Positions 357-64,000 of a stretch of DNA of 64,000 nt are shown piece by piece. Origin of the DNA: a virus; the IMG/VR virus record IMGVR_UViG_3300010391_001464, positions 26,145 to 90,144 of that record; one strand, written 5' to 3'. The notes below the pieces were generated by a model. It searched no databases, had not been told where the DNA came from, and saw only the letters and a list, made by a program, of their open reading frames with translations. The translations under genes were made by a program, and so were the position numbers. Every line of letters begins with the position of its first letter. Within the stretch, counting starts at the first letter, position 1.

Positions 357-695
357 ATGAAAATTAAAAGCGATTTTGTGACTAATAGTTCTAGTTCTTC
401 ATATATAGTATATATTCCTAAAAATGTAACATTTGATAAGTTAAAGATACAAGATAATATTGAAGGATCAAACTTGGCAAGTTTAGAAAAAGTTTATAAC
501 GAATTACTAAAATCTAAAAAGTTTAATGAATATGACAGTTCCGAAATATTTAGTACTCTTAGAACATTCTTATATAATAATAAGTTAATTGTGAGTTCAA
601 TAGATACGGGACCTGATTTTGGTTCTATTATATTGGTAGATTTAGAATCGATAAATAAAATAAATGAGAGGTTTTCTGATGATACGAATAGCTAA
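357..695 (+). CDS. DFVTNSSSSS-motif protein, radical SAM partner
   Basis: A 112-residue protein starting MKIKSDFVTNSSSSSYIVYIP. The same N-terminal block recurs in two proteins at the other end of the window (63166 and 63621), while the rest of each protein is unrelated, so the N-terminus behaves like a tag or leader. The start at 357 has a good AAGGGG ribosome site six bases upstream. Its end overlaps the start of the radical SAM gene (679), implying translational coupling. Function unknown; I infer that the N-terminal motif may be a recognition or modification site for the neighbouring radical SAM enzyme. Confidence 0.8.
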   Translation: MKIKSDFVTNSSSSSYIVYIPKNVTFDKLKIQDNIEGSNLASLEKVYNELLKSKKFNEYDSSEIFSTLRTFLYNNKLIVSSIDTGPDFGSIILVDLESINKINERFSDDTNS

Positions 696-1700
696 CTGGT
701 TATTGACAAGAAGATGTAATCTTAAATGTTCTTATTGTGCTATTGCAATGGATTATCCTAAAATGCCATTAGAATATCCTGAAATGGCTCATTATTCAAA
801 ATATGAAATGAGAACTGAAATAGTATTAGATTATTTAGAAAGACTTAAAGCTCATAATCCAAATATGTTTCATATTTTCTATGGTGGTGAACCGCTCTTA
901 AGAAAGATCTTCCTGAAATAATTAAGTTTTGTAATGATAAAGATATTCAATATACTATTATTACAAATAACTCAAATGCTATTCAACCCGCTTTAAATGA
1001 ATTAGTACAAAAAGTTGGAACTTTAAAAGGACTAACTTCTTCAGTTGATCCTATAATTATGAGGTCTGACTATTCCGATTTAGATAGATTAAAGAAAAGT
1101 AAGGCTGGATTTGAAAGATTAACTGAATGGAAGAAAAAAATAAATGACGTAGTTGCAGAAGTAACAGTGGATGAAGAAATGCTAGATGATTTAATACCAT
1201 TAGTATCAATGTTAACCGAAAATGGTATTAGTAGTTCTATAACATTTGTGGATATTTCAAAAAGTAAATATTATGATTTTTCAAATATAACAGATGAAAA
1301 AGTACTAGTCAATAAGAGTGAAAAAGTAAGGAATATTCTTAAAGAATTGGAAAATGATAAATATGACGTTCATATGGCTAAAGAGCTATTGCCTAGGATT
1401 TATGATATATTACCATCAAATCTAGATTGTGGACTTGATAAGAATGTGCATAATTTAACCATAGATGCTGATGGGTCTGTCAGATTATGCCTTAGAGTTA
1501 GAGGATGTAAAACATCTGACCATTATCTAGATGAATATATTAACTATGATGGAAATATAAATGATAATCTATTATATAATATTAGAGAAGATAAAAAAGA
1601 GTTTTGTCTTAGATGTAATTGGACATGTGGAATCATGACATCTTTAATTGAAGAAGGAAGTTCAAATTATAATAAGTTAGTACATTCTGATAGGAGATAA
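679..1700 (+). CDS. Radical SAM protein with SPASM-like cysteines (frame broken near 903)
   Basis: The N-terminus has the CxxxCxxC cluster motif (CNLKCSYC) and the GGEPLL SAM-binding motif. The frame then stops at 919-921, while the continuation (KDLPEIIKFCNDKD...) runs in the -1 frame to TAA at 1700. One extra A in AGAAAGAT (901-908) restores a protein of about 340 residues. The C-terminus has several Cys (CGLD, CLRVRGC, CLRCNWTC) in a SPASM-like arrangement for auxiliary Fe-S clusters. The start at 679 follows GAGAGG; ATG 664 is an alternative. It likely acts on the upstream DFVTNSSSSS protein, but the chemistry is unknown. The break is probably a sequencing indel; frameshifting or pseudogenisation are possible. 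Confidence 0.85.
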
Positions 1701-6743: not shown

Positions 6744-7434
6744 TATTAAAATAGTAGGTTTGGGTGGTATTGGGTCTGTACTAATAGAATCTATTTCAAG
6801 ATTTTTAAACTATTCCATTCAATCACAAGATCCTATATATATAACTTTAATAGATGGAGATGTTTTTGAATCAAAAAATTATGAAAGACAAATCTTTCAT
6901 ATGTTAGGTAATAAGGCCGAAGTTAAAACTAAAGAACTTCAAATGAAATTTGATAGAGTAAATTTTAAGGCCATAAATTCTTTTGTTAATTCAGAAAATA
7001 TTTCAAGTATAATTTCGAACGGTGATATATTGTTTTTATGTGTTGATAATCATAAGACAAGAAAATGTGTATCAGATTTCTGTAAAACTTTAGAAAATGT
7101 TACTTTAATAAGTGGTGGTAATGAAATTACAGATGGTAATGTTCAAGTCTTTATAAGAAGGGAGGGAAAAGATTTAACTTCATCACTAACTGATTATCAT
7201 CCTGAGATAGAAAATCCTACAGATAAATCTCCAGATGAAATGAGTTGTGAAGAATTAAGTAAATCAGCACCACAACTATTTTTTACTAATCTAACTGTAG
7301 CAACTATTATGTGTTGGACATTTTTTAACTTTGTAGCAAATAATAAAGTCACAACATATTCAGAAATATATTTTGATATTAAAACAATGAGCACGTTACC
7401 AAAATTTAGAAAAGTGAAACAAAAAGCAGCTTAA
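6736..7434 (+). CDS. ThiF/E1-like adenylating enzyme
   Basis: A 232-residue Rossmann protein: nucleotide loop GLGGIG (8-13), Asp40 with downstream Asn48 and Arg51 (DGDVFESKNYERQ), and Asp104 (VDNHKTR). Together these form the E1-superfamily ATP/Mg site used to adenylate the C-terminus of ubiquitin-like proteins. Cys171 in MSCEELSKSAPQ is placed like the thioester cysteine of short E1s. TTG 6736 is used, with GGAGGG eight bases upstream, overlapping the JAMM stop. Short single-domain E1s of this type occur in PRTRC cassettes. Confidence 0.85.
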   Translation: MNNIKIVGLGGIGSVLIESISRFLNYSIQSQDPIYITLIDGDVFESKNYERQIFHMLGNKAEVKTKELQMKFDRVNFKAINSFVNSENISSIISNGDILFLCVDNHKTRKCVSDFCKTLENVTLISGGNEITDGNVQVFIRREGKDLTSSLTDYHPEIENPTDKSPDEMSCEELSKSAPQLFFTNLTVATIMCWTFFNFVANNKVTTYSEIYFDIKTMSTLPKFRKVKQKAA

Positions 7435-7470
7435 ATAAACTTTTTAAATTCAAACAGTCCTTATTTTAAA

Positions 7471-7516
7471 ATGATAATTATTATGTTTATTTTCTTAAAA
7501 GATTCCTAATTATCAT
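7471..7516 (+). promoter_or_regulatory. Inverted repeat in the leader of the Ub-like gene
   Basis: ATGATAATTA (7471-7480) is perfectly repeated as TAATTATCAT (7507-7516), giving a 10-bp stem with a 26-base loop. It ends 34 bases before the Ub-like ATG and does not include its AGGAGA site. It could be a transcript-end stabiliser, an operator or a weak terminator after the E1 gene; there is no T-tract. Confidence 0.45.
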
Positions 7517-7550
7517 AAACCTTTATAAACAAAAAATTAGGAGATATAGA

Positions 7551-8111
7551 ATGGATAGTAAGTATACCTATGAGAATCTTGAAGTAATGACAGTTGCAGA
7601 ATTAAAGGGAATTGTAAAGGAACTTGGTGTTACTGGTTATAGTAAGTCCACAAAATATGATATTATTGATATGATTCTTTCAGAACAGGGAGTAGAAGTA
7701 ACTCAAGAAAATTTAGCAGAGAAGACTATTGCAGAGTTAAAAGACATTGCAAGAAATCTTGATATGAAGGTTGAGAAGGGTGTTACCAAGGCAGATTTAT
7801 TAAACAGAATTCTTGCAGTAGATGCAGGCGGTAAGGATGAAGTACATGCATTCGGTGGTAACATAGAAGCAGCACATAATATGGTTCAGGGTGGTCCTGC
7901 AACTATTACCGTATCATGTGGTGCTTCTGGTGGTAAATTTCCTGTTATCGGAAAGACAGTTAATGCAGTTGCAGATTTCTTAAAAGAAATCCTCAACATT
8001 GATCCGACCGCAACAGCCATGGTTAACGGCGAGTCAGTCAAAGGAAACTTTGTACTCGGTGAGGGTGACAACGTCGAATTTGTAAAGCAAGCTGGATCAA
8101 AAGGCTGCTAA
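7551..8111 (+). CDS. Ubiquitin-like (beta-grasp) protein with SAP/Rho-N-like repeats
   Basis: A 186-residue protein. Residues ~10-46 and ~55-90 are two helix-turn-helix repeats of the SAP/Rho-N type (VAELKGIVKELG; IAELKDIARNLD), known in nucleic-acid-binding proteins. Residues ~115-182 fit a beta-grasp fold (TITVSCGASGGKFPVI, helix, AMVNGESVKGNFVLGEGDNVEFV) similar to ThiS/MoaD and PRTRC-C Ub-like domains. The C-terminus is AGSKGC, so maturation at the last Gly would remove one Cys. Codon use is less AT-biased than in neighbouring genes, the ribosome site is strong and a terminator follows, all suggesting high expression. The Ub-like role is inferred from fold and neighbours. Confidence 0.75.
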   Translation: MDSKYTYENLEVMTVAELKGIVKELGVTGYSKSTKYDIIDMILSEQGVEVTQENLAEKTIAELKDIARNLDMKVEKGVTKADLLNRILAVDAGGKDEVHAFGGNIEAAHNMVQGGPATITVSCGASGGKFPVIGKTVNAVADFLKEILNIDPTATAMVNGESVKGNFVLGEGDNVEFVKQAGSKGC

Positions 8112-8122
8112 TTAAATAAAAA

Positions 8123-8161
8123 TCCGAGGATTTAAAAATAGTACAAATCCTCGGGTTTTTT
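8123..8161 (+). terminator. Rho-independent terminator after the Ub-like gene
   Basis: CCGAGGATTT (8124-8133) pairs with AAATCCTCGG (8146-8155), followed by GTTTTTT. It is a GC-rich stem in an AT-rich background and closes the transcript of the Ub-like gene. Confidence 0.9.
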
Positions 8162-8281
8162 AATTGAAAAATTAAAAAAATAATTTAAAATAATACAAAA
8201 ATATGCTTCAAAATATAAAATAAATTCGGAATCTAACTGTTTTAATAAGAACATAATAAATGATATGGAGGTGCAAAAATT

Positions 8282-9223
8282 TTGCATCAAGATATAGAAA
8301 GAATAAAAACTGTAAATGAGTTCTTAGAAAAAACTTCTACAACTACATATATTACTATATGTGTTATAGGGATAGGAACTCTAGGTGGATTTCTTTCTAG
8401 ATGCATCTCTGACCTGGAAGAAGTAACTGAATTATGCATAATTGATTATGATATTATAGAAGAAAAGAATTTAATAAATTCAATATACACATATGAAGAT
8501 CTGGGGCAGTATAAAGTAGATGCATTAGAAAGAATAATTAAAAGAGAGAATAAGAATATAAATATAACAAAAATAAACGAGAGATATATTGAAAGTAAAA
8601 CGATTCTACCGAAGAAATATGATTTAGTTTTAGATTGTAGAGATTTTACTTATGACAGACTAAAAGAAATATCTGCTCGATTATATATTACATCAAGATA
8701 TCTTATTATCGATTGTAGAAAAAATGTAACATATGATACTCATACAGAAGGAAAGTATTTATCTTTTTTAAGTAAAAATGATTTAAGATATGCAAGCGTT
8801 GAAGCAACAATGTTGATTATTAAAGGTGGTTTAAAGTTACTTATAGAAAATGAGTCAGTTATGTCAATTGAACTAGATCATCTAGATAGAAAAGTACATG
8901 ATGACATTTCAAAATCAAAAGAAGTAGATATTATATATGAGCCTCACCAAAATGAAAAAAGATTCGTTAATTTAAAAGAAGTATTTAATTTGATAATCGA
9001 ATATAATAAACTAAACGATTTAGTCATATGCTTGGGCAGTAAAAACGATTCCAATATAGATAAACTTGTTCAAAGGTCAAGTCTAAAAAGTTATCAAGAT
9101 GTTTTACAAGTTTTAATGCCGCTAGTTTCTCTTCCCTATACACATTCAAGCTATCTAATTAAATTACAGATAGTAGATAATAAATATTATATTGAATTAT
9201 TACCTGACACAGGAGCCGCGTAA
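8282..9223 (+). CDS. Second ThiF/E1-like protein
   Basis: 313 residues. Residues 26-35 (CVIGIGTLGG) form a Rossmann loop, followed by acidic Asp55/Asp57 and Asn63 (IIDYDIIEEKNL), as in E1/ThiF proteins, and DCRDFTYDR near residue 118. No clear catalytic cysteine is visible, and the C-terminal half is not recognised. TTG 8282 is used, with GGAGGTG about eight bases upstream. It starts a new unit after the terminator, in the same direction. It may be a regulatory or divergent E1 for the same system. Confidence 0.7.
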   Translation: MHQDIERIKTVNEFLEKTSTTTYITICVIGIGTLGGFLSRCISDLEEVTELCIIDYDIIEEKNLINSIYTYEDLGQYKVDALERIIKRENKNINITKINERYIESKTILPKKYDLVLDCRDFTYDRLKEISARLYITSRYLIIDCRKNVTYDTHTEGKYLSFLSKNDLRYASVEATMLIIKGGLKLLIENESVMSIELDHLDRKVHDDISKSKEVDIIYEPHQNEKRFVNLKEVFNLIIEYNKLNDLVICLGSKNDSNIDKLVQRSSLKSYQDVLQVLMPLVSLPYTHSSYLIKLQIVDNKYYIELLPDTGAA

Positions 9224-24677: not shown

Positions 24678-24857
24678 ATGAAAGAAAATGGAATATGGAC
24701 TCCAGAAGTAGAAAATGGAAAAATATTTATAGAAAGTTCTGACTTCTCTCATGATGTAAGATTATATATCGATGGTGATTTTAAAGACATAAAACAAAAG
24801 ATGAAATATGCAACTGAACTTGCAGTAAGATTAAATTTTGTGAATTTAATAAAGTAG
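24678..24857 (+). CDS. Small unknown protein
   Basis: 59 residues from ATG 24678, which follows GGAG at about 11 bases; ATG 24648 is inside the hairpin stem and is less likely. Sequence KENGIWTPEVENGKIF... suggests a small beta protein. Ends with TAG. It precedes the tRNA-Gln. Confidence 0.55.
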   Translation: MKENGIWTPEVENGKIFIESSDFSHDVRLYIDGDFKDIKQKMKYATELAVRLNFVNLIK

Positions 24858-24889
24858 AAAAAGTCTTAAACCTTATAAAATATAGAAAT

Positions 24890-24963
24890 TCGGGAGTCAT
24901 CTAGTGGTAGGATGTAGTCCTTTGAAGACTGTCACGGTCGTTCGACCCGACCCTCTCGAACCA
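24890..24963 (+). tRNA. tRNA-Gln (TTG)
   Basis: Acceptor TCGGGAG/CTCTCGA (one G-T pair), starting T1-A72 as is usual for bacterial tRNA-Gln. Anticodon loop CTTTGAA gives anticodon TTG (reads CAA). T arm TCGTTCGACCCGA; CCA is encoded (24961-24963). Confidence 0.92.
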
Positions 24964-24996
24964 TTTAAAAAATAATTTAACATATGAGAGAAAAAA

Positions 24997-25203
24997 GTGA
25001 AAAATAATATTACATTTATTCAGTGGTTTAAATCCTCCGGTATTTATATATCTATTATTTCATTAATAGTTTTAATCTACATGGGAATATTTTTAAGATT
25101 TGGATTTTATATGGTATATGAATTTCAATATAAAAAATATGTTCAAGAAGAAATCAAAGGAATGATTAATAAGGAGTGTTTAACGAATGATCATAAATAT
25201 TAG
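24997..25203 (+). CDS. Small single-pass membrane protein
   Basis: 68 residues from GTG 24997 (GAGAG upstream). Residues ~14-40 form one hydrophobic segment (GIYISIISLIVLIYMGIFL), followed by a basic tail, so it is likely an inner-membrane protein. It overlaps the next gene by 17 bases. Function unknown. Confidence 0.6.
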   Translation: MKNNITFIQWFKSSGIYISIISLIVLIYMGIFLRFGFYMVYEFQYKKYVQEEIKGMINKECLTNDHKY

Positions 25204-25372
25204 TTGCAAAATATGTAAAAAAAGAGTACAAATTGATTCAACAGAGTATATATTAAAAACAGATGACTTCGGTAAATGTCCTGATTGTACAGGATTAAAA
25301 AAGATCATTCAACCAAAATTAGAAGACAAACATGAATGTAATATCTGTACAGATTATTGCACATGTAAATAA
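25187..25372 (+). CDS. Small zinc-ribbon protein
   Basis: 61 residues with CKICKK, CPDC, CNICTDYCTC: at least two CxxC pairs, consistent with a zinc ribbon. Translationally coupled to the membrane protein upstream. Function unknown. Confidence 0.6.
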   Translation: MIINISCKICKKRVQIDSTEYILKTDDFGKCPDCTGLKKIIQPKLEDKHECNICTDYCTCK

Positions 25373-25390
25373 AGTTATCGCTCGGGGGCT

Positions 25391-25494
25391 AATGAATGGT
25401 GGTCATTAAAGGGCATTCCAGGTGATGTAAGACCATATGGGCCATGCTACAGATATTAAATCGTGGACTTGACTGCCATTCATTTTCTTTACTA
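25391..25494 (+). ncRNA. Candidate structured RNA in the tRNA region
   Basis: A ~104-base element without an ORF. AATGAATGG (25391-25399) pairs perfectly with CCATTCATT (25486-25494). Inside, GGTC (25401-25404) pairs with GACC (25431-25434) and CCATG (25442-25446) with CGTGG (25472-25476), giving a three-way arrangement. It does not fit a tRNA cloverleaf. It sits between tRNA-Gln and a truncated tRNA. Confidence 0.55.
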
Positions 25495-25533
25495 AACTTT
25501 TGAGTATTGTTTTAATAGTAATCATTAATATAA

Positions 25534-25564
25534 GCCCTTATAATTCAACTGGTAGAATAGCTGA
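25534..25564 (+). pseudogene. 5' half of a tRNA gene
   Basis: GCCCTTA, T8-A9, D stem ATTC/GAAT with loop AACTGGTA, then the start of an anticodon stem. No matching 3' half (TAAGGGC acceptor strand) was found nearby; instead a homing endonuclease begins about 40 bases on. Probably a tRNA gene cut by endonuclease invasion; a split or intron-bearing tRNA is less likely. Confidence 0.6.
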
Positions 25565-25601
25565 TCTCTTTCTATATAGAACATATATAGAAAGAGGTTA
25601 G
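25561..25601 (+). promoter_or_regulatory. Hairpin sequestering the endonuclease ribosome site
   Basis: CTCTTTCTATAT (25566-25577) pairs perfectly with ATATAGAAAGAG (25585-25596), extended by CTGAT/GTTAG with wobbles to 17 bp. The GAGG ribosome site (25594-25597) lies in the 3' arm, six bases before ATG 25604. T4 homing endonuclease genes are known to be silenced in early transcripts by similar hairpins. Confidence 0.75.
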
Positions 25602-25603
25602 TA

Positions 25604-26277
25604 ATGTTTTGTAAATTTTGCAATAAAGAATGTAAAAACAATAATTCGATTATAAATCATGAAAGATTATGCAAATTAAATTCTAATAGACATATAAGTT
25701 CATTTATAGAATATAATAAAAAAGTAAAGAATTTAGAAGTAATAAAATTAAATACTAATGGTGCTACAAAAGCAAAAAATTTAGGAAAAGTATTTATAAT
25801 ATCTAATAAAACTAGAGAAAAAATTAGAATTAAAAGTTTAGGAAGAAAACATTCAGAAAAGTTTAAGACTAACCAAAGATTTAATGCTTTTAAAAATAAA
25901 TTAGGTGGGCACACTTCTAAAAAAGTCTTTATTATAAAAAAGAACATGGAGATATAGTATATTTACATTCAAGTTATGAATTAATAGTCGCTAAAGAACT
26001 TGATTATTATCATATAGAATGGACTAGACCTGATCCTTTAATTTGGACAGATAATGTAAAACATAGATATTATCCAGATTTTTATTTACCTGAATTTAAT
26101 ATATATTTAGATACAAAGAATGATTACTTGATAGAAAAAGATAAATATAAAATAGATAAAGTTATAAAAGAGAATAATATCAAATTATTTATAATAGATA
26201 AAAATAATCTATCATGGCTTAAAATAAAAAATATAATTTGCCCGCTAAGCATTAATGGTGATGCAGAGGTTTTGTAA
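25604..26277 (+). CDS. Homing endonuclease beside tRNA genes (frame broken near 25930)
   Basis: The N-terminal part has a zinc finger (CKFCNKECKNN...H...C) and a NUMOD3-like segment (TREKIRIKSLGRKHSEKFK). One T missing in CTTTATT (~25927-25932) breaks the frame. The continuation has the PDDEXK-like core SSYELIVAKELDYYHIEW...HRYYPDFYLPEFNIYLDTKN, common in phage homing endonucleases. The last codons read into tRNA-Thr (26240-26277). Ribosome site hidden in a hairpin. Confidence 0.75.
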
Positions 26278-26314
26278 ACCTCAGAACTCGGTTCGATACC
26301 GGGAGTGGGCTCCA
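26240..26314 (+). tRNA. tRNA-Thr (TGT)
   Basis: Acceptor GCCCGCT/AGTGGGC, anticodon stem GAGGT/ACCTC around loop TTTGTAA (anticodon TGT), T arm TCGGTTCGATACCGGGA, CCA encoded (26312-26314). The upstream endonuclease reading frame ends inside it. Confidence 0.92.
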
Positions 26315-26396
26315 TTTTAGGAGAAAAAGAAAGATGAGATATAATTATTATAAATGGTACTTCCATTAAGTAATTTTGCTTAATAGGAGGTACATA

Positions 26397-26702
26397 ATGA
26401 AATTTTATACTTATAATTATTATAAAGGGGATAGATTTAAAATGTATTATAATTTTAGATCTGACTCAGTTCCAGGAATACATAAAAGAAGAAGATGGTT
26501 CAAAATTTATTATCATTGCCATATTGATTGCATGAATGAAAAAAGAAGATGGACTGATGATTTTAAGTTAATAAAAGAGTACCATATAAAATTCAGAATT
26601 AAAAGATCTATATCAAATCTTCCAGATACTTGGGATGATATTCCTAAAGGTAGAACAACTAAAGGTTGGAAAAGATCAAGAAAACAAAAACAATGGATGT
26701 AA
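26397..26702 (+). CDS. Small basic Tyr/Lys/Trp-rich protein
   Basis: 101 residues from ATG 26397 (AGGAGG seven bases upstream; the frame is open to 26376). Very basic, rich in Tyr, Arg and Trp. No recognised domain; could bind nucleic acid. Confidence 0.6.
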   Translation: MKFYTYNYYKGDRFKMYYNFRSDSVPGIHKRRRWFKIYYHCHIDCMNEKRRWTDDFKLIKEYHIKFRIKRSISNLPDTWDDIPKGRTTKGWKRSRKQKQWM

Positions 26703-26729: not shown

Positions 26730-27206
26730 ATGAAAACCAAAGAAGAATTATTATCTGATTTAAAAAAGAAATATAAAGAATATGATGATAAATTTTCTAT
26801 ACTATCTAGAGAAAGTAGAACTATAGAACAAGAAATAGAAAAATTAAGTTCTGATATAATTTTAGAGAATAAATATCTATCTAAAGAATCTTGGACTCTA
26901 TCTATCGGAAGAAGTAAAAAAGATTTTTATTTAACTAGTCATTTGAAAAATAGAAAGAATTTTCATGAAATATTAAAACTATCAAGTGGACCATATCATC
27001 ATTCAATTTCAATTAATGAAGTTACATTATCATTTAATGACAATGATGTATATTTATATTTTAAATCTTCAAAACAAGGATTAGAATTTATAAAAGAACA
27101 AGGTATAAAACCAAATATAACAACACTCAAAAAAGATTTTGATGAATTAGAATCATCATTAATTAGTATTAAAACTATTCTGGAGATGTTTAGTGAAAAC
27201 AATTAA
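26730..27206 (+). CDS. Unknown protein with N-terminal coiled coil
   Basis: 158 residues. Residues 1-45 form a coiled coil (KTKEELLSDLKKKYKEYDDK), followed by a mixed alpha/beta part and a C-terminal helix. GGAGG before ATG. A strong terminator hairpin follows. Confidence 0.6.
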   Translation: MKTKEELLSDLKKKYKEYDDKFSILSRESRTIEQEIEKLSSDIILENKYLSKESWTLSIGRSKKDFYLTSHLKNRKNFHEILKLSSGPYHHSISINEVTLSFNDNDVYLYFKSSKQGLEFIKEQGIKPNITTLKKDFDELESSLISIKTILEMFSENN

Positions 27207-27214
27207 CGAATAAG

Positions 27215-27257
27215 TTCCTTTGAGTATTATAATACTCAAAGGAATTATTTTTTTTGA
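27215..27257 (+). terminator. Perfect hairpin plus T-tract
   Basis: TTCCTTTGAGTATT (27215-27228) pairs perfectly with AATACTCAAAGGAA (27231-27244), followed by TTATTTTTTTTG. It is a strong intrinsic terminator, but the AAAGGA in its 3' arm is also the only plausible ribosome site for the NADAR gene, so it may act as a translation switch. Confidence 0.75.
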
Positions 27258-27660
27258 TGGTGAGTATAGATTTTTATCAAATTTCTATATATGTGAAGTA
27301 CCATTTGAAGGGAATATTTATTCTTCTTCCGAACATGCATATCAAGCTGCAAAAAGTTTAGATGTTGAAATTAGAGAACAAATTAGACTTTTAAAAACTC
27401 CAGGTGAGTCTAAAAAGTTCGGCGGAAAAATTAAAATAAGACCTAACTGGAATCAAATTAAATTCAATAAAATGTATGAAATAGTTTTAAATAAATTCTA
27501 TAATAATAAAGAATTAAAAAAATTATTACTAGAAACTGGAGATGCAGAATTAATTGAAGGAAATTACTGGAATGATACTTTTTGGGGTATATGTAATGGA
27601 GTAGGAGAAAATAACTTAGGAAAGATTCTTATGGCAGTAAGAGAATTATTGAAAGGTTAG
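27220..27660 (+). CDS. NADAR-family protein (YbiA-like)
   Basis: The protein from residue ~13 reads FFDGEYRFLSNFY ... SSSEHAYQAAKSLD ... TPGESKKFGG ... RPNWNQIKFNKMYEIVLNKF ... LLLETGDAELIEGNYWNDTFWGICNGVGENNLGKILMAVRELL: a complete NADAR (NAD/ADP-ribose) domain. Known NADARs hydrolyse N-glycosidic bonds, including removing ADP-ribose from guanine in DNA, and so can counter DarT-type defence. The only in-frame start is TTG 27220 inside the hairpin, so the true start is uncertain. Confidence 0.85.
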   Translation: MSIIILKGIIFFDGEYRFLSNFYICEVPFEGNIYSSSEHAYQAAKSLDVEIREQIRLLKTPGESKKFGGKIKIRPNWNQIKFNKMYEIVLNKFYNNKELKKLLLETGDAELIEGNYWNDTFWGICNGVGENNLGKILMAVRELLKG

Positions 27661-27661
27661 T

Positions 27662-28216
27662 ATGAGTAATTCGTATTATACAGGCGATGAACATTATAAT
27701 CATAAAAATATTATAAAATATTGTAATCGTTCATTTAAGAATATAGAAGAGATGAATGAAACTATGATTGAGAATAATAATAAAGTTGTCAAATATGGTG
27801 ACAAGGTTTATCATGTAGGGGATTTTTGCTTTGGTTTAGGTAAAGATATAGTTGATAGATTAAATGGACAACATTATTTAATAATTGGAAGTCATGATAG
27901 AAATAATCAAAAAATATATGGTACTATGGTTATAATTGGAGAAGTATATGAGGTTAAAATAAATAATACTTTTATTTTTCTTAATCATTATGCTCAAAGA
28001 GTTTGGCCAAAATCTCACTATGGTTCATGGCATTTATTCGGTCATTCACATGGTAACTTGCCTTCATATGGTAAATCATTTGATGTTGGTGTTGATTCAC
28101 ATAATTTTACACCATGGTCATATAGTGAGATTAAAGAAAGAATGGACTCTATAGAAGTATCTGAATATAAAATATTCGAATCAAGATGGGATAGACCTAT
28201 TAAATCAAAAGAATAA
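27662..28216 (+). CDS. Calcineurin-like metallophosphoesterase
   Basis: 184 residues: YYTGDEHYNHKNI (GDxH-like), VYHVGDFCFG (GD), IIGSHDRN (GNHD variant) and FGHSHGNLP (GHxH). This is the metal-binding set of single-domain phosphoesterases (YfcE-like). Substrate unknown; the adjacent NADAR gene suggests nucleotide or ADP-ribose-related phosphate, but that is inference. One base separates it from the NADAR stop. Confidence 0.85.
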   Translation: MSNSYYTGDEHYNHKNIIKYCNRSFKNIEEMNETMIENNNKVVKYGDKVYHVGDFCFGLGKDIVDRLNGQHYLIIGSHDRNNQKIYGTMVIIGEVYEVKINNTFIFLNHYAQRVWPKSHYGSWHLFGHSHGNLPSYGKSFDVGVDSHNFTPWSYSEIKERMDSIEVSEYKIFESRWDRPIKSKE

Positions 28217-31511: not shown

Positions 31512-31754
31512 ATGAATAGCTTCAAGTATTTTAAAAATTCAGAGTGTAAATTCTTTCCATGCCATCATATGTGTGGAGATTTTTATAACTGTCTTTTCTG
31601 TTTTTGTCCAATTTACAAATTCAAATGTAAAGGTAATTATAAATTAAAAGATGGAATAAAAGATTGCTCTAATTGTATTTTACCACATGAAGAAACTGGA
31701 TGGGATTATGTAGTTAATTTTTTAAAAAAACATCATTTCGAAAGAAAGGAGTGA
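31512..31754 (+). CDS. Cysteine-rich small-domain protein (PF04071-like)
   Basis: 80 residues: KFFPCHHMCGDFYNCLFCFCPIY ... CKG ... DCSNCILPHEE. This Cys/His order matches the PF04071 'cysteine-rich small domain'. Probably binds zinc; role unknown. Confidence 0.75.
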   Translation: MNSFKYFKNSECKFFPCHHMCGDFYNCLFCFCPIYKFKCKGNYKLKDGIKDCSNCILPHEETGWDYVVNFLKKHHFERKE

Positions 31755-31764
31755 GATCCTATTA

Positions 31765-32262
31765 ATGGAGTCGGTAGTATTATTAAATCAAGATTTTTCT
31801 TTTATACAAGTTATTAATTGGCAACGAGCACTTCGGTTACTTATAAAAAAGAAAGTTGAAGTAATTGAATATACAGATAAAGTTGTAAAAAATGAAGAAA
31901 GAACATTTGTTATAACTTTACCCAGAATTTTAAAACTTATTTATTATGTTAAGAATTTCTACAAGAAGAAAGTAAAATTCAACAGAAAAAATATGCTTCT
32001 TAGAGATAATTATGAATGTGCTTATTGTGGAACTACCGGCAACAAAAATAATAAGCTCACTATGGATCATATAATTCCTAAGTCAAAAGGTGGTAAAAGT
32101 ACTTTTGAAAATACAGTTACTTGTTGTACCTCATGTAATAGTAAAAAGAAGAATAGAACTCCTGAAGAATCAGGAATGGTTTTAATAAAGAAAGCATATG
32201 AACCAACACGTTATGATTTATTTAAAGACCAAATCTCTAATATAATTGCAAGATTTTTATAA
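31765..32262 (+). CDS. HNH endonuclease
   Basis: 165 residues with the bacterial-type HNH domain: YECAYCGTTG ... LTMDHIIPKSKGG ... NTVTCCTSCNSKK, preceded by VVLLNQDFSFIQVINWQRALRLL. Free-standing, probably a homing or packaging-related nuclease; surrounding small genes favour a selfish role. Confidence 0.85.
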   Translation: MESVVLLNQDFSFIQVINWQRALRLLIKKKVEVIEYTDKVVKNEERTFVITLPRILKLIYYVKNFYKKKVKFNRKNMLLRDNYECAYCGTTGNKNNKLTMDHIIPKSKGGKSTFENTVTCCTSCNSKKKNRTPEESGMVLIKKAYEPTRYDLFKDQISNIIARFL

Positions 32263-32270
32263 GGAGAAGT

Positions 32271-32468
32271 ATGTTACAAAGACTAAAACAAATTTTTAGA
32301 AACTCATTTACATTTCACAATCAATGGACATCAGTGTGGTTAAAACAAATAATATGGTTTAATATTAATTTTAGTACAGAATCACATAGATCTGTAATCA
32401 ATCTTAAAATTATAAGTTTTGAATTATATCTTTGCGGTTTTGGTATTATTATTGATATCTTCATATGA
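32271..32468 (+). CDS. Small hydrophobic protein
   Basis: 65 residues, aromatic-rich with a hydrophobic C-terminus (LYLCGFGIIIDIFI) that could insert in a membrane. AAGGAG upstream. Function unknown. Confidence 0.5.
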   Translation: MLQRLKQIFRNSFTFHNQWTSVWLKQIIWFNINFSTESHRSVINLKIISFELYLCGFGIIIDIFI

Positions 32469-32477
32469 GGATAATAA

Positions 32478-32768
32478 ATGAACGAAAAAGAAAAACACAT
32501 CGTAGGGATGTTATTATTACTTCAAGCTCATTCTGACCCAAATTCAGACTTTACAAAAAATGGCTTTTGTTGTGTAGGTTATGATTCATCACATAAAATT
32601 ATAAGTCCAACTATATATGAAGTTCCAACTTCAATATTATTTTCTATAGTAAAAGTAGGAGATATATTAGAAAAAATTAAAAATGATGACTCTATAGAAT
32701 TTCTAGATGTTGCTATCACTGGAAAAAGAATAGTTCCAGTACTTAAAGATAAAAATCTTAAGGATTAA
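32478..32768 (+). CDS. Unknown protein, paralogue of 32779
   Basis: 96 residues: MLLLLQAHSDPNSDF...GFCCVGYDSSHK...PTSILFSIVKVGDILEKIKNDDSIEFLDVAITGKRIVPV. It aligns by eye with the next gene along most of its length, so the two are a tandem duplication. Function unknown. Confidence 0.6.
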   Translation: MNEKEKHIVGMLLLLQAHSDPNSDFTKNGFCCVGYDSSHKIISPTIYEVPTSILFSIVKVGDILEKIKNDDSIEFLDVAITGKRIVPVLKDKNLKD

Positions 32769-32778
32769 CTAGGAAAAA

Positions 32779-33049
32779 ATGAATGACTTAGAAAAAGATT
32801 TATGTAAAAAAAATGCTTTCTCTTCAAGGATATCTAGAACCAACAAGAGCAGGATATTGCTTTGTAGTTTTTGATGATAAACATCTAGAACCAACTAGTA
32901 TTCTTAATGATTCAATACATATATTAAATATAGAAACTATGGAATTAGGAAAAATTATTGACATTATTAATGAAGATAAAGTTAAATTAGTAGATTTTAC
33001 GGTAATACATAAATTTATTTGTCCAGTATTCGATAGAGTACTTGTATAG
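32779..33049 (+). CDS. Paralogue of 32478 (frame broken at A8 run)
   Basis: ATG 32779 reads MNDLEKDLCKK, then leaves frame at an eight-A run (32806-32813). One more A gives KKMLSLQGYLEPTRAGYCFVVFDDKH...PTSI...DFTVIHKFICPV, matching the 32478 product. Ends with TAG nine bases before tRNA-Ala. Confidence 0.6.
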
Positions 33050-33057
33050 ATTAAAAT

Positions 33058-33131
33058 GGGGCCATAGTTTAGAGGGAAAACAACACGTTTGCACCGTGTA
33101 GTCCAGAGTTCAAGTCTCTGTGGTTCCACCA
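33058..33131 (+). tRNA. tRNA-Ala (TGC)
   Basis: Acceptor GGGGCCA/TGGTTCC (two G-T pairs), D stem GTTT/AAAC, anticodon stem ACACG/CGTGT with loop TTTGCAC (anticodon TGC), T arm CAGAG-TTCAAGT-CTCTG, CCA encoded (33129-33131). Confidence 0.92.
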
Positions 33132-33201
33132 GTCTATTATAATCCTCCACCATTAATAGAGTGAATTATTAAAACTCTACCATAGAGGTTAATATATAAA
33201 A

Positions 33202-33570
33202 ATGAAAGTGATTATCGCAGGAACTAGAACATTTAATGATTATAAACTTCTTAAATCAAATTTAGATATATTTAAAAATCATATTGAAATATATCATAAA
33301 GATAAACTACCTATCATAATAATTTCAGGTAGTGCTAGAGGAGCTGATTCTCTAGGTAAAAGATATGCTATAGAAAATAATTTACAAGTTAAAGAATATC
33401 CAGCAGATTGGGATAAATATGGTAAATCTGCTGGATATCGTAGAAATGAAGAAATGGGAAAGATAGCAGATGTTCTTATATGTTTTTGGGATGGAAGGTC
33501 TAAAGGAACATTACACATGTTAAATATAATGAAGAAATTAAAAAAAGAGTGGAAGATTATTTATTTTTAA
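33202..33570 (+). CDS. YspA/cpYpsA-type SLOG-domain protein
   Basis: 122 residues: KVIIAGTRTFNDYKLL, ISGSARGADSLGKRYAIENN, EYPADWDKYGKSAGYRRNEEMGKIADVLICFWDG. These are the hallmark segments of DUF2493/YspA SLOG proteins, which are thought to bind nucleotide or ADP-ribose-like ligands. Together with NADAR it hints at handling of NAD-derived signals, possibly against host defence (inference). Confidence 0.85.
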   Translation: MKVIIAGTRTFNDYKLLKSNLDIFKNHIEIYHKDKLPIIIISGSARGADSLGKRYAIENNLQVKEYPADWDKYGKSAGYRRNEEMGKIADVLICFWDGRSKGTLHMLNIMKKLKKEWKIIYF

Positions 33571-33580
33571 GGAATTTAAA

Positions 33581-33769
33581 ATGACTGAAAAAGCAAGTCT
33601 AAAAGTATTTTTTACTATCCTAGGAGTTGACCAAATAAAAACATCAGTAACATATGAAGGAATAACTAAAGAACGTATAACCAATAAACAAAAAAGAGTT
33701 TATGAAACTATGAATTTAATAAAAGAAATAATAATAGAAAAACATGGTCCGGACAGTTTTAAAGGATAA
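33581..33769 (+). CDS. Unknown 62-residue protein
   Basis: Small Lys-rich helical protein, ten bases after the SLOG gene with AAGGAAT upstream. No motif recognised. Confidence 0.5.
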   Translation: MTEKASLKVFFTILGVDQIKTSVTYEGITKERITNKQKRVYETMNLIKEIIIEKHGPDSFKG

Positions 33770-33853
33770 TTATAAAATTAGTTTGTTTCTTATTTAAAAA
33801 ATAAGAACAAAATTATAAATAAAATAATCAATGTATAATAAGGAGATTTAAAA

Positions 33854-34072
33854 ATGGTAAGGCTTCAAGATTCAATTCATTTTCCTAAATATATTAGGAC
33901 TAATGAAAAATGTAGTATTGTAGAAAAGGGACATAGATGTGAAAATAAAGCTGAAATAGAAATGATAGTTGATGGAGATAAAATTTCTACAATAGTAAAA
34001 TTCTGTGATACTCATGCTAAACTTTATGATGAACAATCTTATAATGAGTTAAAGTATAGAGATGAATCTTAA
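33854..34072 (+). CDS. Small Cys/His protein
   Basis: 72 residues with KCSIVEKGHRCENKAE ... KFCDTHAKLY: a likely zinc-binding knuckle. AAGGAG before ATG. Function unknown. Upstream 33770-33853 holds a short AT-rich inverted repeat (TTGTTTCTTATTT/AAATAAGAACAA near 33782-33811), possibly a terminator. Confidence 0.55.
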   Translation: MVRLQDSIHFPKYIRTNEKCSIVEKGHRCENKAEIEMIVDGDKISTIVKFCDTHAKLYDEQSYNELKYRDES

Positions 34073-34085
34073 TAACGGAGGAAAT

Positions 34086-34325
34086 ATGTTAATATGTGAA
34101 TGTGGAAATTCTACTAAATTTTATGAAAGAATTGTGACCGTATATAAGGTTGATGAGGTGGGAACTAGGCATCTTAGAGAAGGACAAGTTACTAGACAAT
34201 ATTTTTGTGCTAATTGTATAAATATGAAGGAGGTATTTAAAAGTGAAAAATCCATATGTGGGACTTACTCATATACTACCAACATGGGAGTGGCTCCTAA
34301 AGTTGTGGAAAAAGATTCTGTGTAA
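34086..34325 (+). CDS. Zinc-ribbon protein
   Basis: 80 residues from ATG 34086 (CGGAGG upstream): CECGNSTKFYER ... YFCANCIN, a CxC...CxxC ribbon. Its 3' part overlaps the next gene by 83 bases, which is long for this genome; a missing base could have extended the frame. Confidence 0.5.
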   Translation: MLICECGNSTKFYERIVTVYKVDEVGTRHLREGQVTRQYFCANCINMKEVFKSEKSICGTYSYTTNMGVAPKVVEKDSV

Positions 34326-34440
34326 AAGAGGATGGCATTTATTTGATGAAGTATATTCACCACCTAATCATTATCTTTCATGTGATGCTTGTGACCTAGA
34401 TGTACATATTGAAAAAATAGAGGAGCATAAAAATGATTAG
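34243..34440 (+). CDS. Small protein with CxxC
   Basis: 65 residues from GTG 34243, with AAGGAGG about nine bases upstream. WHLFDEVYSPPNHYLSCDACDLDVH near the C-terminus. Overlaps the next gene by eight bases. Function unknown. Confidence 0.5.
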   Translation: MKNPYVGLTHILPTWEWLLKLWKKILCKRGWHLFDEVYSPPNHYLSCDACDLDVHIEKIEEHKND

Positions 34441-34723
34441 AAAAAAGTGTCCAGTTTGTAATAACAATATTGTTTTTGATTTTGTAGTTCCTACTAAACA
34501 TTTCTATATTAGTGAAGTTGGTGAAATCAAGAGGGAAGAGTCCAGTATATGGATGGAAAATGCACGTTCACATTGTATTACACAATGTGATTCTCCAGGA
34601 CTAGAATTTTATTGTAATCTAGACAAAGATCATAATATTGATACTCTGGAAATTATTGAATGGATGGATCAAGTTGAAATTGAATTTAGAGAAAAGAAAT
34701 GTTTAGATTTAATAGGAGAATAA
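34433..34723 (+). CDS. Zinc-ribbon-like protein
   Basis: 96 residues starting RKKCPVCNNNIVFDF, a CxxC knuckle, followed by an acidic domain with two more Cys. Coupled to the gene upstream. Function unknown. Confidence 0.55.
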   Translation: MIRKKCPVCNNNIVFDFVVPTKHFYISEVGEIKREESSIWMENARSHCITQCDSPGLEFYCNLDKDHNIDTLEIIEWMDQVEIEFREKKCLDLIGE

Positions 34724-34724
34724 A

Positions 34725-35036
34725 TTGTCCTTCATATATAATATTTTAATTGGATTAGGTATTATTTTAGGAATTTATATTTATGTAGTTTTAGTACTTA
34801 AAAACTTTAGAAGATTAGAACGTATTATAGGTTGTAATTATTACAGTGATTATTTTGAAATCCTAGAATTAAAACATAAAACTATAATAGTTTTATGTTT
34901 TATCCCTTGTTCACTTAATATCTTACAACAAACAGAAAGATTTATAAAAAGATTTATAGAACATTTTAATTTTACTAAAAAATATATAGAATATGACAAT
35001 TCGCTTGAAAAAATTATAGATAATGTAAGGAAATAG
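34725..35036 (+). CDS. Membrane protein, tandem paralogue A
   Basis: 103 residues from TTG 34725 (GGAG upstream). Two hydrophobic segments (~5-25 and ~57-75) and a C-terminal KYIEYDNSLEKIIDNVRK that matches the next protein's KEYIAYDKSIEKIIDKSRE. A tandem duplicate pair of unknown function, probably in the inner membrane. Confidence 0.6.
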   Translation: MSFIYNILIGLGIILGIYIYVVLVLKNFRRLERIIGCNYYSDYFEILELKHKTIIVLCFIPCSLNILQQTERFIKRFIEHFNFTKKYIEYDNSLEKIIDNVRK

Positions 35037-35044
35037 GAGAAGTA

Positions 35045-35350
35045 ATGGATATTAAACTAATATTATTAGTAATATTTGGGTTCTCTCTTTTGGGATTTGC
35101 ATATGTTATGACTGTATTATTAAATTTTAGTTTTATAAAAGATTCATACATAAGTAAAACTAAACTATTTAAATATATAAAATTAAAAAATATAACTATA
35201 GTAATAATAGCTTTTATACCTTTTTCTATAAACTTTATTTTTCTCTTAGAACATTTATATAAGAAACTTAAAGAAGCTATAAAATTTCTGAAAGAATATA
35301 TTGCTTATGATAAATCGATCGAAAAGATTATAGATAAATCTAGAGAATAG
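35045..35350 (+). CDS. Membrane protein, tandem paralogue B
   Basis: 101 residues with the same two-segment plan as the gene at 34725 and the shared C-terminal motif. AGGAGAAG before ATG. Function unknown. Confidence 0.6.
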   Translation: MDIKLILLVIFGFSLLGFAYVMTVLLNFSFIKDSYISKTKLFKYIKLKNITIVIIAFIPFSINFIFLLEHLYKKLKEAIKFLKEYIAYDKSIEKIIDKSRE

Positions 35351-35363
35351 AGGTAATGAATAA

Positions 35364-36221
35364 GTGGTAAAAGAAAATCTACCTGATGTTCAAGAAACTA
35401 AACCGAAGATTCAAATACCAATTAATCAAGTTGGTGTAGAAAATGTAGAAGTTCCTTTCATGCTACAAACTAAAAATGGTCCTTTTCATGAGCTTACTGC
35501 AAAGACATCAATTCGTACTAATTTAGGTTCAAATAAAAAAGGAATATCAATGTCAAGGCTAATATTAACATTAAGACCTTTTTTAATGAAACCTTTAAAA
35601 CACTTCTTAATTAATGATATTCTAACACAATTAAAAACAAATTTAGGAACAGATGATAGTTTCATCAAATTTGAATTTAAACTTCCCCTGATTAAAAAAT
35701 CACCAAAGTCAGAAAATGAATTTCCTTTATATTATAATTGTCAATTTGAAGGAAAATTAGTAAATGATAAATTCTCATTTTATCAGGCAGTTAAAGTTCA
35801 ATATGCATCTTATTGTCCATGTTCTGCAGAATTGTCAAAAGATTTATTAAATAAGGGTTACTCATCTCAAGGATTTCCTCATGCTCAAAGATCATATGCA
35901 ACTGTAGCAATTGAACCAGTAAAAGATAAATATATATGGTTAGAAGATATTATTGAACTAGTTGAAAAGTCTATTGCTACAATTCCATATCCAATTATTA
36001 AAAGAATAGATGAACAAGAAATAGCTCGAATTGCGTCTGAAAATCCTATTTTCGTTGAAGATGCTATTCGACAAATATCTAGCAGTTTAAATTCAAAAAG
36101 TGAAATATATGATTGGATTATAAAATGTTCTCACGAAGAGTCTATACATACTCATGAAGCTATTGCTATATCATATAAAGGAATAAAAGAAGGATTTAAC
36201 GATAGATCTTTTATAATATAG
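35364..36221 (+). CDS. folE2: GTP cyclohydrolase FolE2 (type IB)
   Basis: 285 residues from GTG 35364: LPDVQETKPKIQIPINQVGVENVEVP at the N-terminus, SYCPCSAELS (catalytic Cys region) and GFPHAQRSYATVAIEP later, then the EESIHTHEAIA segment. These are family hallmarks. The enzyme makes 7,8-dihydroneopterin triphosphate from GTP, the first step to folate and to preQ0/7-deazaguanines. In phages such genes usually serve DNA or tRNA deazaguanine modification; partner genes (queD, queE, queC) are not in this window. Confidence 0.9.
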   Translation: MVKENLPDVQETKPKIQIPINQVGVENVEVPFMLQTKNGPFHELTAKTSIRTNLGSNKKGISMSRLILTLRPFLMKPLKHFLINDILTQLKTNLGTDDSFIKFEFKLPLIKKSPKSENEFPLYYNCQFEGKLVNDKFSFYQAVKVQYASYCPCSAELSKDLLNKGYSSQGFPHAQRSYATVAIEPVKDKYIWLEDIIELVEKSIATIPYPIIKRIDEQEIARIASENPIFVEDAIRQISSSLNSKSEIYDWIIKCSHEESIHTHEAIAISYKGIKEGFNDRSFII

Positions 36222-62163: not shown

Positions 62164-62221
62164 ATAAATATATATAGAAAGGGAATATGATAAAAAAAAT
62201 AAAATCTGAAAATATGTAATC

Positions 62222-63169
62222 ATGTTTAACTCTGAGTCTGGAGTAGAAATATTAACTGGTATTAACGGAAATCCAGATCCGTTTGTTTTAGATATGCCAA
62301 ATATGATTGATATTGGAGTTATGGGGCATTGTAAAAATAAATGCCCTATGTGTTATCAGGGAGATAAAGATCAACCTAATATGACTTTTGAGAATTATAA
62401 GAAATTAATGAATGAAGTAAAAGATGTAGTTAATCAAGTTGCTTTAGGTGGACGTGGTGATCCTAATCATCATGAAAATTTTAAAGAAATATTAGAATAT
62501 ACGAGAAAATCAAATATAGTTCCAAATTATACAACTTCTGGAATAGATATTACTGATAATCAAGTAGAAACTTCAAAAATGGCTGGGGCAGTAGCTGTCT
62601 CTGATTATCAAAAAGATTTTACATACATTTCTATTGATAAGTTAATAAGAGCAGGTATAAAAACAAATATTCATACAATATTTTCAAACCAAAATGCTCA
62701 AAGATGTATTGATATGATTAATGGAGTTGATGTATGGAATGGAAGAGTGGATTTAAATAAATTAAATGCCGTTGTATTTTTGTTATTTAAACCTCAAGGA
62801 AAAGGTAAATCACTTCTATCTTGGATTCCGTCAGTGGACCAGATTAGAAGGTTCTCAGACGCGATCAAGGATCCCAAGTGTAAATTTAAAATTGGCATGG
62901 ACAGTTGTACTGTTTGTAAACTAAAACAAATAGGACGAGAGTTCTCCAAAGTAGAGGAAATGATGTTAGATACTTGTGAAGCAGGAAGAATGTCAAGTTA
63001 TATAACACCAGATATGAAATTTATGCCTTGTAGTTTTTGTAATCATGAAAAAGAAGGAATATCAATTCTAGAAAATGATATTAAAAAAGTGTGGGAGGAA
63101 GGGCATTCATTTAAAAACGTTAGAGAAATTTTACTAAATAAACCAATGAGTTGTCCATATTTTTTATGA
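62222..63169 (+). CDS. Radical SAM protein paired with DFVTNSSS proteins
   Basis: 315 residues. CxxxCxxC motif CKNKCPMC (Cys37, 41, 44), GGRGDPNHH in place of GGEP, and a C-terminal Cys set (CTVCK, CEAGRMSSYITPDMKFMPCSFC, CPYF) typical of SPASM/twitch auxiliary clusters. ATG 62222 has no ribosome site; one more T at ATGTAATC (62215) would allow ATG 62187 (GAAAGG upstream), adding ~12 residues. Its TGA overlaps ATG 63166 of a DFVTNSSS protein, a second linked pair like 357/679. Confidence 0.85.
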   Translation: MFNSESGVEILTGINGNPDPFVLDMPNMIDIGVMGHCKNKCPMCYQGDKDQPNMTFENYKKLMNEVKDVVNQVALGGRGDPNHHENFKEILEYTRKSNIVPNYTTSGIDITDNQVETSKMAGAVAVSDYQKDFTYISIDKLIRAGIKTNIHTIFSNQNAQRCIDMINGVDVWNGRVDLNKLNAVVFLLFKPQGKGKSLLSWIPSVDQIRRFSDAIKDPKCKFKIGMDSCTVCKLKQIGREFSKVEEMMLDTCEAGRMSSYITPDMKFMPCSFCNHEKEGISILENDIKKVWEEGHSFKNVREILLNKPMSCPYFL

Positions 63170-63624
63170 GAATTAAAACTGACTTTGTAACAAATAGTTC
63201 TTCCACATCATTTATTATTGATGATGGAAGAACTATTATCCAGGTTGCATTTGAGATTTTAGATATTATAGAAAAAAAATGTTTAGATGATAAGTATACA
63301 GAGTGGTATAAAACTGAAGATGGTAAAGCTAGAATAGATGGTGATTTTTCTAGAGTTCTAAATGCAAAAAAACAAATTAAATATTTAAAATATTTTAGAG
63401 ATATAAATATCTTTATTCCATTTACTACTTATATATCGACTTTTATCTATAAAGAATTTTGTACTTTTTCAAAAATACGAGTAGATACTTCTGATCATCA
63501 TAATTGGAATAGTATAAATTATAAGTACTTTCTTGAAATGGATAAATGTTATGACATAGGTCATGATTTAAAATTTATAAATATTGAAGATCGTACAATT
63601 AATTCGAGAGATAAATCTATATGA
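63166..63624 (+). CDS. DFVTNSSS-motif protein A
   Basis: 152 residues from ATG 63166 (chosen over upstream TTG 63151 because it overlaps the radical SAM stop, ATGA). Starts RIKTDFVTNSSSTSFI, then an unrelated body (DDGRTIIQVAFEILDIIEKK ...). Overlaps the next gene's ATG by four bases. Predicted partner or substrate of the radical SAM enzyme. Confidence 0.8.
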   Translation: MRIKTDFVTNSSSTSFIIDDGRTIIQVAFEILDIIEKKCLDDKYTEWYKTEDGKARIDGDFSRVLNAKKQIKYLKYFRDINIFIPFTTYISTFIYKEFCTFSKIRVDTSDHHNWNSINYKYFLEMDKCYDIGHDLKFINIEDRTINSRDKSI

Positions 63625-64000
63625 GACTAAAAATTGATTTTGTAACTAACTCAAGTTCGAGTAGTTTTATAATGATAGGTGTTAAAAATAATGAAATCAT
63701 AGAAAAATATATAGAAAGAATTTTATGGTCAAAACCAGGAAAAAAACTAGATTTTTATAATAGAGATAATTATTTAAATGACTATAATGAGATTTTTGAA
63801 GAAATAGATCATTCAATTTATCAAGTAGGAACATTTTATCATTTTTTTGAGAATGAAGAATATTATGCTTATAAAAACCCAGGTTTTTTAGGGCTTGATT
63901 TAGAAGAAATGTTAAGAAGAAATTTAAATTTTACAGAAATGAAAGCAGAAGTCATTAAAAAATTCAATGATGTTGAAATAGCAGTTGATGAAAAACAAAT
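63621..64000 (+). CDS. DFVTNSSS-motif protein B (3' end outside window)
   Basis: ATG 63621 overlaps the previous TGA. N-terminus RLKIDFVTNSSSSSFIMIGV, then a new body (NNEIIEKYIERILWSKPGKK ...). The frame is open to the window end (~126 residues seen). A third copy of the motif. Confidence 0.75.
   Translation, partial: MRLKIDFVTNSSSSSFIMIGVKNNEIIEKYIERILWSKPGKKLDFYNRDNYLNDYNEIFEEIDHSIYQVGTFYHFFENEEYYAYKNPGFLGLDLEEMLRRNLNFTEMKAEVIKKFNDVEIAVDEKQ

Follow-up and report, generated by a model that had tools for sequence, protein, structure and literature searches.

A radical SAM enzyme encoded beside proteins that share an N-terminal tag, in a large uncultured phage and in bacterial STAND operons

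We examined the right-hand end of a 64,000-nucleotide stretch of DNA (hereafter ‘the window’) that forms the final part of the 90,144-base IMG/VR record IMGVR_UViG_3300010391_001464 (positions 26,145–90,144) and belongs to a large uncultured phage. The sequence and its translation bear out a preliminary description of this region, which had reported a radical SAM gene with a GGRGDP motif at positions 62222–64000, followed by two motif proteins with ATGA overlaps (Table 1). The ATG of tagged protein 1 overlaps the TGA of the enzyme gene (termed type B), and the ATG of tagged protein 2 overlaps the stop codon of tagged protein 1. The type B enzyme matches the radical SAM profile PF04055 with 33.9 bits (E 4.5e-8; cut-off 29.5), placing it in that superfamily, and carries the characteristic CX3CX2C motif. 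Its relatives have an N-terminus that is longer by 15–50 residues. Residues matching those N-termini are encoded in another frame directly upstream of the ATG at 62222 (window 62187–62232), and a small 5′ indel may hide the true start of the gene. The tail family of tagged protein 1 (the family defined by the sequence behind the tag) comprises six viral proteins.

Table 1. Features of the two radical SAM loci (window positions; record positions where stated)
Feature	Position	Strand	Basis
Radical SAM enzyme, type B (GGRGDP), 315 aa	62222..63169	+	PF04055 match; alignment of 52 relatives; AlphaFold2
CX3CX2C motif (CKNKCPMC), SAM-binding 4Fe-4S cluster	62330..62353	+	Translation
GGRGDP motif, radical SAM core	62447..62464	+	Sequence
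Tagged protein 1, starts MRIKTDFVTNSSSTSFI, 152 aa from ATG	63166..63624	+	ORF translation
N-terminal tag of tagged protein 1, residues 1–18	63166..63219	+	Conservation profile over 243 non-redundant proteins
Tagged protein 2, starts MRLKIDFVTNSSSSSFI, at least 126 aa, runs past record end	63621..64000	+	ORF translation
N-terminal tag of tagged protein 2, residues 1–18	63621..63674	+	Conservation profile
Fourth of four consecutive tagged proteins (left locus), starts MKIKSDFVTNSSSSSYI, 112 aa	357..695	+	ORF translation
Radical SAM enzyme, type D (GGEP; left locus), frameshifted near GGEP, one TAA inside	679..1700 (record 26823–27844)	+	Sequence

The preliminary description had proposed that motif proteins be counted beyond both ends of the window, and that chance adjacency would be indicated if the genome held no more of them and no linkage were seen elsewhere. 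The whole record encodes six, all on the plus strand: the two described above and four at a left locus, three of which lie outside the window (record 24800–26465). The right end of the window coincides with the end of the record. A reversed-pattern control found no tagged protein in the whole record, and strong linkage is found elsewhere, as set out below; neither sign of chance adjacency therefore applies.

The left locus contains a second radical SAM enzyme, termed type D, and the impression that the two enzymes are not close paralogues was correct. Within the superfamily the two are unrelated: the best BLASTP match has an E value of 1.6, and the left enzyme is absent from the profile matches of families A, B and C (the clades defined below). 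Its relatives are open reading frames in most of 38 related regions, and the frameshift may reflect a sequencing error, an assembly error or a broken gene. A pattern scan for viral relatives of the type D enzyme found none; PF04055 found some in sampled relatives. By eye, its place in the phage lineage is conserved, between a gene for an SbcC-like ATPase and a small conserved gene, and it is a conserved gene of the lineage with or without tagged proteins upstream. The two-locus layout is seen again in relatives. In records no shorter than 100 kb, the tag or a near variant of it was present in 13 of 13 with type B versus 2 of 6 without it; because type B predicts the tag in this way, it is likelier than type D to be the tag enzyme. 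Type D is disfavoured for the principal role because many relatives conserve its gene in the absence of tagged proteins; it may act on another substrate or share the tagged ones. The earlier argument that the association arises twice in one genome, and that this strengthens the linkage, therefore holds in part: the left association is real but weaker, and the main strength lies in the recurrence of the B, C and A families across phages and bacteria.

Several other features of the window and its relatives were observed. Tag variants MKFRASEVTNSSSTSF and MKYKVSEVTNSSSTSF adjoin type D in relatives (L276:1164–1691 and L277:3211–4370), and a related phage record of 207,111 bases (G046, which holds locus L254) has 16 radical SAM matches. 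Inspection by eye of window positions ~5547–9223 (record 31691–35367) showed adjacent genes for a JAB-like protein, a pair of ThiF/E1-like proteins and a small protein that resembles ubiquitin and ends in GC; together they may form a ubiquitin-like cassette of the phage.

The tag, M-K-x-[K/R]-x-D-F-V-T-N-S-S-S-x-S-[F/Y], spans 18 residues at the extreme N-terminus of some 240 non-redundant proteins, with the full consensus M-K-I-[KR]-x-D-F-V-T-N-S-S-S-[ST]-S-[FY]-[IV]-[IV]. The proteins were collected from viral contigs found by a DNA pattern, viral contigs found by the enzyme alone, and bacterial and archaeal genomes found by the tag pattern, giving 306 distinct proteins that reduce to 243 at 60% identity. 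Aspartate occupies residue 6 in 233 of the 243. The invariance of T-N-S-S is imposed in part by the search pattern itself, and relatives with SEVTNSSS and DHVTNSSS exist. In the profile of all 243 proteins, information content is at background beyond about 18 residues. The tails behind the tag fall into 52 components, some short chance ORFs among them, and hence into about 50 sequence families; mean column identity across 43 family representatives is 10%, with conservation confined to the tag. Judged from these alignments, the tag is a modular tail borne by many different proteins, which range from 80 to 500 amino acids in length (mostly 90–250). A Pfam search of the 43 tail representatives returned single weak matches only, and the tagged proteins of the window match no named family in Pfam, NCBIfam or PADLOC and have only weak, unnamed matches in PHROGs. 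One family of 18 tagged phage proteins contains zinc-ribbon-like cysteine pairs (CxxC ... CPIC; members include L016:504–1076, L022:2008–2583 and L103:11072–11626).

That the tag always stands at a gene start, and that genes within arrays are closely packed, would also suit a translational or nucleic-acid signal (a start region or a recombination site) for which the peptide meaning is incidental. However, AGY and TCN serine codons, two families that lie two base changes apart, are mixed at each motif serine, and third positions are free throughout. Because of this mixing, selection acts on the peptide and not on the DNA; a DNA-level signal is rejected by codon use, and we regard that reading as scarcely credible.

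The linkage between enzyme and tag was evident from whichever side it was approached. With the enzyme as the only query, 34 loci with enough downstream DNA were obtained, and in 24 of them a tagged gene follows on the same strand no more than 2.5 kb to the 3′ side, often as the next gene; no antisense tagged gene was found in the 34, and ten had no recognisable tagged protein nearby. Viral stretches that were fetched by the tag and also encode the enzyme have 190 tagged genes, of which 189 are on the enzyme strand and 185 are 3′ of the enzyme. The median gap between tagged genes in viral stretches was 5 bases, and arrays reached eight genes. A sample independent of both features, consisting of 50 relatives picked by an RNA polymerase subunit, contained a radical SAM gene in 42 records and the tag in 29, the latter divided as 29 of the 42 with the enzyme and none of the 8 without it (Fisher p 3.8e-4, which is only a guide, as the records are mutually related fragments). 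Approximately 117 tag matches were obtained in these 50 related records, versus no control matches. When the tag was the only query for cellular stretches, 23 of the 27 retrieved also contained the enzyme. The sampled relatives, the enzyme-fetched loci and the counts of strand and order lead us to reject chance adjacency of enzyme and tag.

A tree of 82 enzymes, built by a quick method, resolved a bacterial clade (A), a phage clade that includes the window enzyme (B) and a second phage clade (C), with the enzymes of RB16-like, T4-like phages far outside; the phage and bacterial enzymes form neighbouring clades. Tag residue 4 follows these divisions, being lysine in 18 of 18 proteins encoded beside clade A enzymes and 76 of 79 beside clade B, and arginine in 83 of 84 beside clade C. 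Counted by locus, the ratio of lysine to arginine is 18:0 for clade A, 39:0 for clade B and 1:21 for clade C (39:0 versus 1:21, p 2e-15). Members of three tail families are encoded next to enzymes of different clades, and residue 4 matches the local enzyme in 60 of 60 such proteins of known clade. The strongest argument for recognition of the tag by the enzyme is this co-variation, and we consider such recognition well supported by the sequence comparisons. The clades are monophyletic, so the change from lysine to arginine could stem from few evolutionary events, yet several tail families changed together.

These observations bear on an alternative in which another partner reads the tag as a signal for sorting or assembly, for instance into the virion or a compartment, while the enzyme is merely co-resident in an accessory operon. 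A predicted disordered tag on unrelated domains would fit such a signal, as would phage records in which the fragment encodes the tag and lacks type B; all of those records except G013, however, are fragments of less than 90 kb. Moreover, the tag always lies beside the enzyme in bacterial STAND operons and on alphaproteobacterial plasmids, where there are no phage structural genes, and within tail families residue 4 follows the enzyme clade. We consider a sorting signal unlikely.

In an alignment of 52 relatives, the first and last cysteines of CX3CX2C, the next tyrosine, and G76, G77 and G79 are invariant. Clade C enzymes have an unusual spacing of the first-cluster cysteines (CX7CX6C or CxCX3CX3C), with CX3CX2C not kept; this non-canonical spacing, within an otherwise well conserved family, is seen at L103:7190–8266, L098, L044, L045, L105 and L160. 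Two Firmicutes genomes encode clade C enzymes together with tagged proteins of 475–507 amino acids that have a hydrophobic stretch directly after the tag (L160:2752–4275, L166:5669–7096) and that differ from the small STAND-linked ones. Clade B enzymes have four conserved C-terminal cysteines in a twitch-like arrangement (C229, C252, C270 and C311 in the window enzyme), and those of clades A and C have more, in a SPASM-like arrangement. The window enzyme, with its four C-terminal cysteines, gives no match to the seven-cysteine SPASM domain model TIGR04085, for which the bacterial relatives L149 and L154 score 32.4 and 25.4 against a cut-off of 27. The window enzyme reaches the cut-off of no curated maturase family.

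An AlphaFold2 model of the window enzyme (mean pLDDT 94.7) has SuiB as its closest Foldseek neighbour, followed by SkfB, viperin, PqqE and anSME (4k37, E 9e-9), and the best fold and profile matches taken together are peptide-modifying SPASM enzymes (SuiB, SkfB, MftC, WgkB and PqqE). The presence of viperin structures among the best Foldseek matches, and weak matches to pVip models (E 1.6e-4 for the window enzyme and 1.2e-11 for one bacterial enzyme), could point instead to a viperin-like or other small-molecule radical SAM enzyme whose product is antiviral or metabolic, with the tagged proteins acting as regulators that bind it. We judge this very unlikely: the window enzyme scores 13 bits against a cut-off of 180 for the NCBIfam viperin family, the top matches are to peptide-modifying enzymes, the auxiliary-cluster cysteines are invariant, and many unrelated tagged proteins per enzyme suit substrates more than regulators.

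The known SPASM/twitch peptide maturases (SuiB, SkfB, PqqE, MftC, PapB and WgkB) likewise combine a radical SAM core with C-terminal auxiliary-cluster cysteines, and in their systems, too, the enzyme gene lies beside substrates that share an N-terminal recognition stretch. Whereas those substrates are short precursor peptides, here they would be proteins of 80–500 amino acids from about 50 unrelated families bearing one short tag, and the clade C first-cluster spacings are a further difference. The phage and bacterial loci thus resemble RiPP systems in having a shared N-terminal sequence, co-varying with the enzyme, in the putative substrates encoded beside it; a short precursor peptide with leader and core is not seen, the tails being diverse and the one that was modelled being folded. 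The formylglycine-generating enzyme anSME acts on a serine or cysteine that lies within a short motif of its folded target protein. It differs from the window enzyme, its fold neighbour, in target motif and neighbourhood, and there is no sulfatase here.

A STAND ATPase gene lies upstream in 21 of the 27 cellular stretches found by the tag; most of the other stretches either look like viral contigs in archaeal bins or are truncated where the fetched sequence ends. In bacteria the genes usually run in the order STAND ATPase, a partner protein (~135 aa), the tagged protein (~138 aa) and the enzyme, and the same set is found on alphaproteobacterial plasmids. The partner is a homologue of the tagged protein, the alignment starting immediately behind the tag (hhalign probability 97.5, E 6e-12), and on this comparison is probably the fold of the tagged protein without its tail. 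In a model of the bacterial tagged protein built with 17 sequences, residues 1–9, the most conserved, are disordered (pLDDT <50) and precede a confident fold; a conserved, disordered N-terminus fits a recognition tail. A Foldseek search with this model gave no match.

The STAND proteins of these operons resemble those of the AVAST systems Avs1 and Avs2, with which they share an Avs2-like ATPase and a variable N-terminal effector. Avs2 models matched 12 of 12 STAND proteins tested (E 1.5e-11 to 1e-27); with the NCBIfam Avs2 model for a full Avs2-type protein the score was 46.6 bits, far under the cut-off of 1000. The N-termini are trypsin-like, TIR-like or SMEK; a passage of PMC10810196 lists SMEK with nuclease domains associated with short Argonautes. 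By eye, some of the bacterial tag operons also have the upstream metallo-beta-lactamase-like gene of Avs1. They differ from Avs systems in the length of the complete STAND ORFs (730–934 aa, versus ~1,400–1,570 positions in the Avs2 models) and in the addition of three genes, for the partner, the tagged protein and the radical SAM enzyme; the STAND system is absent from the window phage. Neighbours of the operons include AbiE, AbiH, AbiL, PglX/type IIG, type II methyltransferase and GajA/PtuA-like genes. Because of the STAND ATPase and these known defence genes nearby, we infer an anti-phage role for the tag–enzyme–STAND operon.

One phage tagged protein, in L051, is homologous to the bacterial STAND-linked tagged protein (E 2.2e-9), and this single case hints at mimicry. 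Together with the neighbouring positions of the phage and bacterial enzymes in the tree, it raises the possibility that the phage loci act on the bacterial STAND system as decoys or inhibitors, by resembling its tagged subunit, an idea compatible with modification of the tag by the enzyme. We consider it doubtful as a general account, since L051 is the sole clear homologue among about 300 tagged proteins and no phage homologue of the bacterial partner protein was found.

We also compared the system with other radical SAM genes of phages and conflict systems. In the T4-like pseudotevenviruses (RB16, KP15 and GAP161; phrog_7293) the radical SAM protein is homologous over 97% of its length at 28–29% identity, with matches in 173 named phage records, but no tagged protein lies beside its gene and these enzymes form the outgroup of the tree; a single regex match to the tag in RB16 was discarded as a chance ORF of 47 amino acids. 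For FtsH ternary conflict systems (vWA-MoxR-FtsH), a passage of PMC7159879 predicts that a radical SAM enzyme acts on the product of a neighbouring gene. That passage describes no tag, and we noticed no FtsH or vWA gene at the loci studied here. The tag was absent from the 50,697 named phage records searched and was present in only 7 plasmid records, and may for that reason have been missed previously. Neither the tag nor its link to the enzyme is named in any curated family of Pfam, NCBIfam or PADLOC or in any paper that we found: ‘VTNSSS’ or ‘FVTNSS’ appeared in one unrelated paper only, and literature searches joining radical SAM with Avs or with phage RiPPs returned nothing relevant.

With the tag, its linkage to the enzyme, the constraint at the protein level, the co-variation with enzyme clade and the STAND operon computed, we think it likely that the enzyme is a SPASM/twitch maturase that recognises and modifies the shared tail, that the diverse sequences behind the tail carry function, and that bacterial STAND systems and phages both make use of this arrangement. 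The maturase would bind the tail via M-K-x-[K/R]-x-D-F, with residue 4 as the specificity position, and would alter a residue most likely within the invariant T-N-S-S-S; the altered tail might then serve in docking, sensing or cross-linking. The remainder of each substrate would be a different small domain carrying the function. In bacteria the modified protein would probably serve the STAND machine as subunit or regulator, and phages of several lineages, which carry the enzyme with arrays of tagged proteins, would probably use them in host takeover or counter-defence.

A radical SAM maturase with tagged substrates is a known kind of system; its distribution here is unexpected. Enzyme and tag probably constitute a protein-modification system, not described before, on which phages and bacteria both draw in their conflict. 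More tentatively, it may represent a general protein-tagging chemistry, in which one enzyme family modifies a universal 18-residue tail on dozens of unrelated proteins, bacteria building a STAND immune sensor with it and phages arming arrays of effectors directed at that machinery; we offer this as a possibility and place less confidence in it than in modification of the tail itself. From the finding we would expect a class of radical SAM protein modification not seen before, with a specificity code at residue 4; it would also give about 50 families of unknown proteins a shared context at once, and it points to an apparent undescribed STAND immune operon with a tagged protein as a core part.
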